Source: Planctomyces sp. (lineage in GTDB: Bacteria; Planctomycetota; Planctomycetia; Planctomycetales; Planctomycetaceae). Taken from it: a stretch of DNA of 64,000 nt. Made by a program: the position numbers and the translations under genes. The notes under the pieces were generated by a model, which ran no database searches, was not told the origin of the DNA, and worked only from the letters and a program-made list of their open reading frames with translations. The DNA lies in contig JAHBXW010000001.1 in the NCBI GenBank assembly GCA_019636235.1, positions 186,001-250,000 on the forward strand, read 5' to 3'. Below are positions 46,574-53,181 of this stretch, piece by piece. Numbering within the stretch: the stretch's first letter is position 1; each line of letters opens with the position of its first letter.

Positions 46574-47605
46574 ATGAAAGCACTCGTCAAGAAGCACGCC
46601 GCTCCCGGGCTGTGGCTCGAGGATGTCCCCGAACCGGTCATCGGGATCAACGACGTCCTGATCCGCGTCGATCGCACGGGGATCTGCGGGACCGACGTCC
46701 ACATTTACAACTGGGACGCCTGGGCACAGAAGACGATCCCCGTGCCGATGGTGGTCGGCCACGAGTTCGTCGGCGAGATCGTGAAAGTCGGCTCGAATGT
46801 GCATGACTTCTTCCCCGGTGAAATTGTCAGCGGGGAAGGGCATGTCGTCTGCGGGCATTGCCGGAACTGCCTCGCGGGCCGGCGGCACCTGTGCGCCGAC
46901 ACCAGGGGCATCGGCGTGAACCGACCGGGCGCCTTCGCCGAGTACATCTCGGTCCCGCAGACGAACGTCTGGCATCACGCCCCGGGCATCGATCTCGACG
47001 TCGCGTCGATCTTCGACCCCTTCGGGAACGCCGTGCACACGGCCCTGTCGTTCAATGTCCTGGGCGAGGACGTGCTGATCACGGGCGCCGGGCCAATTGG
47101 CTGCATGGCGGCGGCGATCTGCCAGTATGCGGGGGCTCGGTACGTGGTCGTCACGGATGTGAACCCCTGGCGTCTGGAGCTGGCGCAACAACTCAAGGCG
47201 ACCCGCGTCGTCGACGTCCGGACGGAGTCGCTGGCCGATGTCCAGAAGGAACTCGGCATGAAAGAGGGGTTCGACGTCGGGCTGGAAATGTCCGGCAACG
47301 CGTCGGCCTTCCGGGACATGCTGGCGAACATGGCGCACGGCGGAAAGATCGCCATGCTGGGCATCCCCGAGAAGGAAGTCGCGATCGACTGGAATCTCGT
47401 GATCTTCAACATGCTGACGATCAAGGGGATCTACGGCCGCGAGATGTACGAGACCTGGTACAAGATGACGGTCATGCTGCAGGGGGGGCTGGACATCTCC
47501 CCCGTCATCACGCACCGCTTCCCTGCGCGGGATTTCGAGCAGGGCTTCGAGGCGATGCGGTCCGGCCAATCGGGCAAAGTGATCCTCGACTGGAAGTGCT
47601 TTTGA
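46574..47605 (+). CDS. tdh: L-threonine 3-dehydrogenase
   Basis: The 343-residue zinc-dependent medium-chain dehydrogenase oxidises L-threonine to 2-amino-3-ketobutyrate with NAD+. The catalytic zinc motif is [16 protein letters not shown] with GHEFVGE; structural zinc ligands lie in [37 protein letters not shown] and the nucleotide site [14 protein letters not shown] match Tdh closely, as does the length. The HxYxWD signature separates it from sorbitol and alcohol dehydrogenases. No 2-amino-3-ketobutyrate CoA ligase (kbl) gene is adjacent. The lipoate genes follow on the same strand. Confidence 0.93.
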
Positions 47606-47643: not shown

Positions 47644-48448
47644 ATGGACGCGGATCGAAACCGCCTGTTGTCCGGCGCGGGGGGGAGTGATAGGATCACT
47701 GAAAATGCTGGTGTTCCCGTGCCTGACCCCCGCGCCGACCATGACGACGTCAATGGCGAGCCTTTGGAGACGCACCTCCTGGGACTCGTCGATTTCGACG
47801 CTGCGCTGGCGCTGCAGGAACGAACGATTTACGACCTCAGCGGCCGCGACGACCGACTCGGAACGCTGCTGATCTGCGAACATCCTCCCGAGATCACGCT
47901 GGGCCGCGACGCCAGTCGCCGCGACCTGTTGGTCAGCGAGGAGGAACTGGCGGCTCGCGAAATTCCAGTCCGCTGGACGCCGCGCGGCGGCGGCGCGATC
48001 ATTCACGCGCCTGGACAGTTGGCGATCTATCCGCTGCTGCCTTTAGAGCGGCTCGGGCTGGGCGTCCACGAGCATCGTCGGCGGCTGGAGGGGGCGCTGG
48101 TCGCCGTCTGCCATGAGCTGCGACTCGCCGCCAAGCGGCGGGAATCGGAGCCGGGCGTCTGGACGCGTTACGGCCAGGCGGCCTATTTCGGGGCGGCGGT
48201 CAAATCCTGGGTCAGTTGCCATGGCGCCTACCTGAACGTGACGATCGACCCCGGCTTTCTCAAACTCGTCGCCGCGACGCCCAACGAACCTTCGACCTCG
48301 TTGCAGGCGCTGCGGCTGCGGCCGGTCAGCATGAACCAGGTGCGCGAGGCCGTCATCCGGCACGTGGCGGAAGCGTTCGGCTACCGCCGGACTCACACAT
48401 ACGTCGGGCACCCGCTGCTGGTCCGCACCCGACGCAGGATTTGCACGA

Positions 48449-48456
<8 letters not shown>
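47644..48456 (+). CDS. LipB-like octanoyltransferase homologue lacking the catalytic Cys/Lys
   Basis: The protein of about 270 residues has the LipB/BPL fold: LICEHPPEITLGR, RWTPRGGGAIIHAPGQLAIYPL (the RGG-x-x-x-x-x-H-x-PGQ motif) and SCHGAYLNVTID. LipB moves an octanoyl group from acyl carrier protein to lipoyl domains. In E. coli LipB the acyl-thioester cysteine (Cys169, in NPCG) and a lysine (Lys135, in EKKIC) are essential; here the aligned positions read Ala211 (KLVAAT) and Gln178 (YGQAAYFG). It may therefore be inactive, regulatory, or use another mechanism. It overlaps lipA by 8 nt. ATG 47644 is the only in-frame ATG before the domain; GTG 47719 is an alternative if the promoter-like pair at 47668-47696 is real. 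Confidence 0.8.
47668..47696 (+). promoter_or_regulatory. Weak promoter-like pair before or within the lipB-like gene start
   Basis: TTGTCC (47668-47673) and TAGGAT (47691-47696) are 17 bp apart, each matching 4 of 6 consensus bases. If used, transcription would begin near 47703 and translation would have to start downstream of it, for example at GTG 47719. Confidence 0.3.
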
Positions 48457-49384
<928 letters not shown>

Positions 49385-52056: not shown

Positions 52057-52265
52057 CGGCGACGGTTTCCATTACCATCAATGGCGAGGTCCGCGCGATC
52101 GCACCGGGAACCACCGTCGCCACGCTCCTCGATCAGCTCGAGCTGCCCTGGAAGTTCGTCGCCGTGGAACGAAATCGGAGCCTTGTCCCGAGGCGCGAGC
52201 ACGCGGGATGCCTGCTGGCCGAGGGAGACGAACTGGAGATCGTCACCCTCGTGGGCGGCGGCTGA
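52053..52265 (+). CDS. thiS: Sulfur carrier protein ThiS
   Basis: The 70-residue ubiquitin-fold protein carries sulfur as a C-terminal thiocarboxylate for thiazole synthesis. It begins [29 protein letters not shown] and ends VTLVGGG, so the required terminal Gly-Gly is already exposed and needs no processing. [12 protein letters not shown] is the usual VAVExNxxxVPR stretch. The ATG at 52053 overlaps the stop of the M16-like gene, and thiG starts 73 nt downstream. No adenylating ThiF is adjacent. Confidence 0.92.
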
Positions 52266-52338
52266 AATCGATTCCGGCCGCCCGATGGCGCCGCACGCTT
52301 CACACGCTGCACTTGTCTCGGAAACACTGTCTGCTGCC

Positions 52339-53181
52339 ATGTTGAACGCCGCCCCCGCCCCCGCCCCCATCTCCCGGCCGCTGACGCTCGGCCGCCACTC
52401 GTTTCGTTCGCGCCTGATCGTCGGGACGGGCAAGCACACGACGTTCGAGGTCATGCAGCAGTGTCTTGACGCGAGCGGCGCGGAGGTCGTCACCGTCGCT
52501 GTCCGACGCGAGCGGCTGATCGACGCCGAGGGACGCAGCATTCTCGATTTCATCGACCTGTCGCGGTACACGATCCTGCCCAACACGGCGGGCTGCTTCA
52601 CCGCGGAGGACGCCGTCCGCGTCGCGCGGCTGGGACGGGAGATTCTCACGAATCTCGACAATCCGGGCGCGGACTGGGTCAAGCTCGAGGTGCTGGGAGA
52701 CAAGAAGACGCTCCTGCCGGACCCTGTGGCCACGCTGGAGGCGACTCGACAACTCGTCGCCGACGGCTTTCAAGTCCTGTGTTATACGACGGACGACCCG
52801 ATCACGGCCCGGCGACTGAAGGACGCCGGCGCGACGTCCGTGATGCCGGCCGGCAGCCCGATCGGCAGCGGGCAGGGCGTGCTGAATCCCAACAACATTC
52901 GCATCTGCCTGGAGTACCTCAAGGACGGCGATCCGGACTACCCGGTGATCATCGACGCTGGCGTGGGCACCGCCAGCGACGTCTCCTTCGCCATGGAACT
53001 GGGCTGCGACGGCGTGCTCCTGAATACCGCGATCGCCAGCGCACAGGATCCCTTGCGCATGGCCCATGCGATGCGCATGGCCTGCGAGGCCGGACATCTG
53101 GCGGCCCTCGCGGGACGCATACCAAGGAAGCTTTACGCGACGGCCTCCAGCCCGGAAACCGGCGTCCTCGGCGGACGCTGA
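52339..53181 (+). CDS. thiG: Thiazole synthase
   Basis: The 280-residue TIM-barrel enzyme forms the thiazole phosphate of thiamine from 1-deoxyxylulose 5-phosphate, dehydroglycine and ThiS thiocarboxylate. Motifs: [49 protein letters not shown] (with the Schiff-base lysine region), [16 protein letters not shown] and [11 protein letters not shown]. The ATG at 52339 gives an N-terminus of usual length. It forms an operon with thiS; neither thiH/thiO nor thiE is in the window. Confidence 0.95.

Follow-up and report, generated by a model that had tools for sequence, protein, structure and literature searches.

The analysed window is a stretch of 64,000 nucleotides from Planctomyces sp., a member of the class Planctomycetia (GCA_019636235.1, contig JAHBXW010000001.1, positions 186,001 to 250,000). 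It carries at 47644-48456 an intact open frame of 270 codons with an ATG start, which encodes a LipB-like protein and runs into the lipoyl synthase gene lipA (Table 1). The preliminary description of this DNA had reported a LipB homologue overlapping lipA by 8 nt, and this was borne out, with the lipA start at 48449 and the stop of the LipB-like frame at 48456. The true start codon of the LipB-like gene is uncertain, because the first ~40 residues have low confidence in the structural model and homology begins only at about residue 38. The L-threonine 3-dehydrogenase gene upstream was considered as a conserved partner and rejected, since among the best 80 of the 115 relatives described below it has no close counterpart and one distant match. 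Farther downstream, the frame at 52081-53181 probably encodes a ThiS-ThiG fusion, as judged from its sequence.

Table 1. Genes and sequence features around the LipB-like gene (positions in the window; counts refer to Cys-less relatives unless canonical LipB is named).
Feature	Position	Strand	Remark
Open frame, 286 aa	45591-46451	+	no Pfam or NCBIfam match
L-threonine 3-dehydrogenase	46574-47605	+	TIGR00692 over cut-off; ends 38 nt ahead of the LipB-like start
LipB-like protein without catalytic Cys and Lys, 270 aa	47644-48456	+	PF21948, 98.3 bits, cut-off 27
RGG loop, Arg114-Gly116, kept	47983-47991	+	R114 112/112, G115 102/112, G116 112/112 class genomes; 29/29 each in canonical LipB
H-x-P-G-Q, His121-Gln125, kept	48004-48018	+	H121 110/112, P123 108/112, G124 112/112, Q125 111/112 class genomes; 29/29 each in canonical LipB
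Gln178 codon, at the catalytic Lys position of LipB	48175-48177	+	by alignment
Ala211-Thr212 codons, at the acyl-thioester Cys (PCG) position of LipB	48274-48279	+	by alignment
C-terminal H-P-x-L, His256-Leu259	48409-48420	+	H256 74/77, P257 72/77, L259 70/77 (best 80 of 115 relatives); 97/112, 104/112, 69/112 class genomes
lipA, lipoyl synthase (P0002)	48449-49384	+	TIGR00510, 361.6 bits, cut-off 310.25
ThiG domain (residues 103-358)	52081-53181	+	ThiS-like N-terminus by eye

PF21948 is the sole Pfam match of the LipB-like protein, with the conserved domain beginning at about residue 38, and its only sequence-level relatives in the PDB are the LipB proteins of T. thermophilus (2qhs, the best) and M. 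tuberculosis (1w66). The scores against the LipB equivalog models all lie below cut-off, and for TIGR00214, the curated LipB model, the protein falls short with 74.5 against 83.55 bits. An AF2 model built on a 77-row alignment has a mean pLDDT of 90.2, with values >95 through most of the core. The top fold match of this model is 2qhs (Z 30.0, rmsd 1.8 Å, 208 aligned residues, 34% identity); 1w66 was matched with Z 27.7, and bovine lipoyltransferase 2e5a was also among the fold matches (Z 21.2). By family the protein belongs to the LplA/LipB catalytic domains, and by the model its fold is that of LipB.

LipB works through a Cys/Lys dyad and an acyl-thioester intermediate (PMC9307952). The LipB-like protein has neither residue. 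Both alignments used (phmmer and MAFFT) place Gln178 opposite the catalytic Lys of 2qhs and 1w66. The Cys position varies with the aligner, being a gap in phmmer, Ala211 in the earlier reading and Thr212 in MAFFT, and is never Cys. The preliminary claim that both catalytic residues are missing is thus confirmed under every aligner; the residue at the Cys site, Ala211 in that description, depends on the aligner. Cys occurs in the protein only at 78, 156, 192 and 267, and Lys only at 164, 187 and 207. LipM-type sequences have a Cys ~12-15 residues ahead of the catalytic Lys and a GSAQ motif, and here residues 160-177 hold no conserved Cys and Gln178 replaces the Lys. LplA requires a Lys at the position equivalent to 178, which the protein does not have. 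The RGG loop and H-x-P-G-Q of LipB are both present.

The distribution of the protein was followed in several sets of genomes. The 148 genomes of the class that are each at least 90% complete were searched with profile A1, and 116 matched. From these, G090 and G063 were removed for having a canonical LipB with Cys and Lys, and G045 was dropped since its match (E 9.6e-6) coincides with a different PF21948 gene, leaving Cys-less LipB in 113 of the 148. None of the 113 matches has an internal stop, and the 112 from genomes other than the window's own (G000) were read residue by residue in rows found by the profile. Among the own genome and 39 relatives, 38 of 40 have the Cys-less protein. A pattern scan over 84,980 species, with one genome per species, gave 115 relatives, of which the best 80 are all titled planctomycetes and include Gimesia, Singulisphaera acidiphila, Blastopirellula marina, Thalassoglobus neptunius and many MAGs. 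The 77-row alignment A3 consists of 76 of these best 80 of 115 loci and P0001, with L120, L133, L147 and L143 left out. Its retrieval patterns covered parts of residues 75-83 and 121-129, so that conservation there is biased upward, whereas the 28-row and 112-row sets came from whole-sequence or profile searches and not from residue patterns. As canonical LipB, 29 sequences were used: 25 from Planctomycetota outside the class, Tth, Mtb, G090 and G063.

The loss of the dyad is shared throughout these relatives. At the catalytic position Cys is found in 0/112 further class genomes against 29/29 canonical LipBs, and the same counts, 0/112 against 29/29, hold for the Lys, whose place is most often taken by Arg (45) or Gln (38). 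In the 77 named rows, drawn from the best 80 of 115 relatives, Cys is present in one and absent from 76 (one of these a gap), and Lys is present in two and absent from 75. The alignments of the Cys-less clade contain no conserved candidate for a relocated Cys or Lys at other positions, nor a conserved LipM-type Cys. Two ways in which the earlier reading could have failed can be set aside. A sequencing error or frameshift is ruled out because relatives from independent genomes carry the same substitutions, and the alignments of the relatives gave no conserved replacement Cys or Lys. It had also been asked whether related planctomycetes share the substitutions; within the class they do (112/112), and planctomycetes outside it have mostly canonical LipB.

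In that outer group, TIGR00214 was over cut-off in 117 of 139 sampled genomes, and PCG was found in 25/25 of those read. An IQ-TREE analysis separated the Cys-less (77) and canonical (29) groups by a single branch with support 100/100. On this unrooted tree, an ancestral LipB likely lost its dyad within the class. The protein is not universal there: 31 class genomes have LipA without Cys-less LipB, among them G063 and G090 with canonical LipB, as well as G111, of the same family as the window genome, which has LipM, LipA and E2 genes. The protein is therefore dispensable somewhere. A tblastn search with 10 queries (E up to 0.01) detected no gene remnant near lipA in the lipA loci of 16 of these 31 genomes, nor in the lipA contig of G090. 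One Cys-less LipB, at G019:C1:2633130-2633669, scores 91.7 bits with TIGR00214, over the cut-off of 83.55, and is a likely source of misannotation. The cut-off thus does not separate canonical from Cys-less LipB, and a survey based on HMMs can take a Cys-less protein for an active octanoyltransferase.

Judged from codon substitutions and motif conservation, the LipB-like gene is under purifying selection. In 10/10 close pairs of Cys-less LipB the dN/dS was 0.06-0.19, and besides the motifs of Table 1, G194 (112/112) and N198 (108/112) are kept in the class genomes. When 236 positions of the 77 rows (best 80 of 115) were ranked by rising variability, RGG, H121, P123, G124, Q125, G194 and N198 took ranks from 6 to 26, while positions 211-213, the place of the PCG that is invariant in canonical LipB, ranked 230, 223 and 199. 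The retrieval pattern could account for part of the motif conservation in the 77 rows, and the 112 profile-found genomes agree with it. The clade also has marks of its own, W111 (74/77) and R234 (75/77 in the rows from the best 80 of 115; 102/112 class genomes). The C-terminal H-P-x-L is conserved in the Cys-less clade, and since the canonical rows are trimmed near there, it does not establish a contrast with canonical LipB. The preliminary description had the RGG, H-x-PGQ and HG motifs all kept. For the first two, which are nearly invariant in the clade, this was right. The His of HG, invariant in canonical LipB, is present here as His193 and is found in only 45/77 named rows (best 80 of 115) and 56/112 class genomes, so that not all pocket motifs are kept. 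By these alignments, selection holds the near-invariant substrate-binding motifs and is relaxed in the variable loop that once carried the nucleophile. The RGG loop has been likened to the lipoate-binding loop of LplA (PMC9307952).

The pairing with lipA is close to fixed in the class. A same-strand lipA lies directly downstream in 111 of the 113 class genomes, and in the other two lipA is on a different contig; the gap between the two matches has a median of 59 nt and a maximum of 489. Among the best 80 of the 115 named loci, a same-strand LipA was found in 72, three of them 1.1-1.8 kb off. Of the eight loci without, L120, L133 and L146 are near a contig end, with the start of lipA still visible right behind the gene in L120; L104, L130, L139, L152 and L165 have room for LipA and have it on neither strand. 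For canonical lipB loci of other Planctomycetota, LipA was within ~1.5 kb in 6/25, so that Cys-less LipB, at 111/113, is the more tightly paired of the two. Both kinds of LipB also occur in one frame with LipA. In G063 (L177 2705-4336) a canonical LipB with Cys and Lys kept is fused in frame to LipA. At L147 795-2531, a single open frame runs from a Cys-less LipB into LipA across a repeat-rich junction, and this frame is not relied on because the junction crosses a short repeat and LipA has its own ATG there. The AF2 model of the L147 protein had a pTM of 0.51 and no confident interface or domain packing.

The preliminary description had proposed a search of the whole genome for a second LipB, LipM or LplA, and a LipM was found. 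In the own genome (5.6 Mb, 99.99% complete), the PF21948 and PF03099 matches besides the LipB-like protein are only this LipM homologue (P0003, encoded at G000:C23:59456-60433 on the minus strand) and BirA. The genome further has one GcvH and three 2-oxoacid dehydrogenase E2-type matches. P0003 contains Cys205 and Lys220, 15 residues apart, in the arrangement FLCF...GSK...GSAQ, and the Cys-Lys spacing in B. subtilis LipM is 12 residues. Both residues are present in 31/31 rows when P0003 is aligned with its 30 best loci, among which is the locus of P0003 itself. A LipM match (E up to 1e-8) occurs in 111 of the 113 genomes with Cys-less LipB. In the whole class, 146 of 148 genomes match, or 143 after discounting three weak matches, of which those of G063 (2.4e-11) and G115 (~1e-11) fall on LplA-like genes and that of G090 (5.2e-9) is at an unlisted place. 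The match of G039 (~5e-11), which lies on a frame of its own and is in part 60% identical, was counted. G063 and G090, the two class genomes found with canonical LipB, have only weak P0003 matches.

G152 and G070 have Cys-less LipB and no LipM match, and are multi-contig assemblies (220 and 250 contigs). In G152 (L175), rated 100% complete, PF21948 matches nothing but the Cys-less LipB, which is followed by lipA, and the genome has two E2 matches. Either lipM fell into a gap of this assembly, or its absence hints that some function remains in the Cys-less protein. Outside the class, many genomes have a LipM-like match and a canonical LipB together, so the presence of LipM alone does not prove that a LipB is inactive. 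The co-occurrence of LipB and LipM has been called very rare (PMC10332631). E2 (PF00198) was found in 147 of the 148 class genomes, and its co-occurrence is for this reason uninformative about a LipL-like role. A third PF21948 group (L036, L040-L043, L046-L063), found in class genomes other than the window's, has the Lys and no LipM-type Cys, for example in SDL...KFSGNAQ or KVSGNAQ. One of its members, L058 (G080), is ~4.5 kb from an E2 gene, and the PF21948 matches of G088, G100 and G125 are similarly near E2. These E2-near genes are, by position, another candidate for a LipL-like step.

Taken together, the gene may encode a LipB-derived protein that has lost acyl-transfer chemistry and persists as a catalytically inactive partner of lipoyl synthase, a reading to which we give a probability of about 0.55. 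The LipB-like protein would no longer form an acyl-thioester. LipM would take octanoate from ACP and load it onto GcvH, perhaps also onto E2 domains, and the old acyl pocket and lipoyl-domain face of the LipB-like protein could hold an octanoylated carrier or octanoyl-ACP and hand it on to the co-produced LipA. The E. coli LipB variant K135A/C169A, an engineered analogue of the LipB-like protein, is described as catalytically inactive and yet binds octanoyl-ACP with a KD of 36 uM (PMC9307952); by analogy, the LipB-like protein may bind an octanoyl carrier without transfer. That the ligand would be passed to LipA is suggested by the near-fixed pairing with lipA. This ligand could be octanoyl-ACP, octanoyl-GcvH or an octanoyl-E2 domain. 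The preliminary description had left two branches, a different transfer chemistry or an adaptor or regulator of LipA with another protein as loader. The second is favoured by the presence of LipM, the relaxed nucleophile loop and the near-fixed lipA linkage; the adaptor role itself we infer, and the L147 model gave it no confident LipB-like/LipA packing. That in most of the class the protein is a dedicated non-catalytic LipA partner (or a Cys-free lipoyl relay replacing LipL), with LipM loading octanoate and the LipB-like protein delivering the octanoylated domain, is put forward tentatively, at a little short of an even chance.

The protein might still be an enzyme, namely a Cys/Lys-independent octanoyl or lipoyl transferase, working for instance between lipoyl domains and replacing LipL, with His121 or residue 174 as nucleophile or base. 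His121 and Gln125 are indeed retained (110/112 and 111/112), position 174 is Cys in 27, Ser in 7 and Thr in 4 of the 77 rows (best 80 of 115), and the own genome offers, by PF21948 and PF03099, no further superfamily protein besides LipM and BirA. Such an activity would also suit G152, with Cys-less LipB as its only PF21948 match, and the unknown amidotransferases proposed for LipM/LipA bacteria without LipL (PMC10332631). However, position 174 is Gly in another 27 of the 77 rows, Cys78 is replaced by Ala, Tyr or Gly in 7/112 class genomes (Ala in a same-genus relative), and no LipM-type Cys is conserved. The nucleophile loop of LipB is relaxed, and E2 genes, mostly together with LipM, persist in the class genomes that do not have the protein, so we consider retained catalysis unlikely.

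Binding motifs kept without chemistry, octanoyl-ACP binding by the inactive E. coli double mutant (PMC9307952) and the pairing with lipA in 111/113 class genomes would also fit a sensor of octanoyl-ACP or acyl-CoA, which would tune LipA or the lipBA unit to the fatty-acid supply and present no substrate. The protein has no domain other than PF21948, and a sensor of this kind seems rather improbable. As for a decaying LipB remnant in organisms that use LipM, both catalytic residues are gone, LipM is intact and 31 class genomes with LipA do without the gene. Decay is nevertheless hard to reconcile with 113 class genomes without internal stops, dN/dS of 0.06-0.19, conserved motifs and a pLDDT >95 in most of the core, and it has very little probability.

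Lipoate is among the central cofactors of aerobic metabolism, and a conserved LipB that has lost its dyad and stays linked to LipA suggests that the LipM/LipA pathway includes a step not yet accounted for. LipL is often missing from bacteria with LipM and LipA, and for these either a LipM of broader range or unknown amidotransferases have been proposed (PMC10332631). The LipB-like protein is, from its sequence and gene order, a candidate for the LipM/LipA gap, though it has no conserved nucleophile. If the non-catalytic partnership with LipA is true, it would be a step of lipoate assembly without counterpart in E. coli, Bacillus or mitochondria. Searches of the open-access literature, judged by titles and abstract openings, gave no report of a Cys-less LipB or of planctomycete lipoate assembly, and the main text of a paper on the essential genes of Planctopirus limnophila names no lip gene (PMC10632474).

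Among the known systems, LipB itself (2qhs, 1w66 and E. coli LipB) shares with the LipB-like protein the fold, the length, RGG, H-x-PGQ, Gly194 and Asn198, and some of its loci are also near lipA. In contrast to LipB, the protein has no catalytic Cys and Lys, its PCG loop is lost, about half of its clade has lost the His of HG, it has its own H-P-x-L motif and its TIGR00214 score is below cut-off. LipM belongs to the same PF21948 fold superfamily and is a separate gene in the same genome, with its Cys and Lys 15 residues apart, whereas the LipB-like protein has neither. The LipL and LIPT1 amidotransferases (PMC7253636, PMC10332631) resemble it in fold superfamily and in the candidate step of acyl transfer from GcvH to E2. 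Unlike them, it has no conserved Cys or Lys and is nearer to LipB in sequence and fold score. The LplA-LipA fusion NF053790, a bifunctional ligase/lipoyl synthase that was seen as a match of P0002, likewise ties a ligase-type domain to LipA; here, in contrast, LipA and its partner are encoded by distinct genes that overlap, and this partner is of LipB type and has no catalytic residues.
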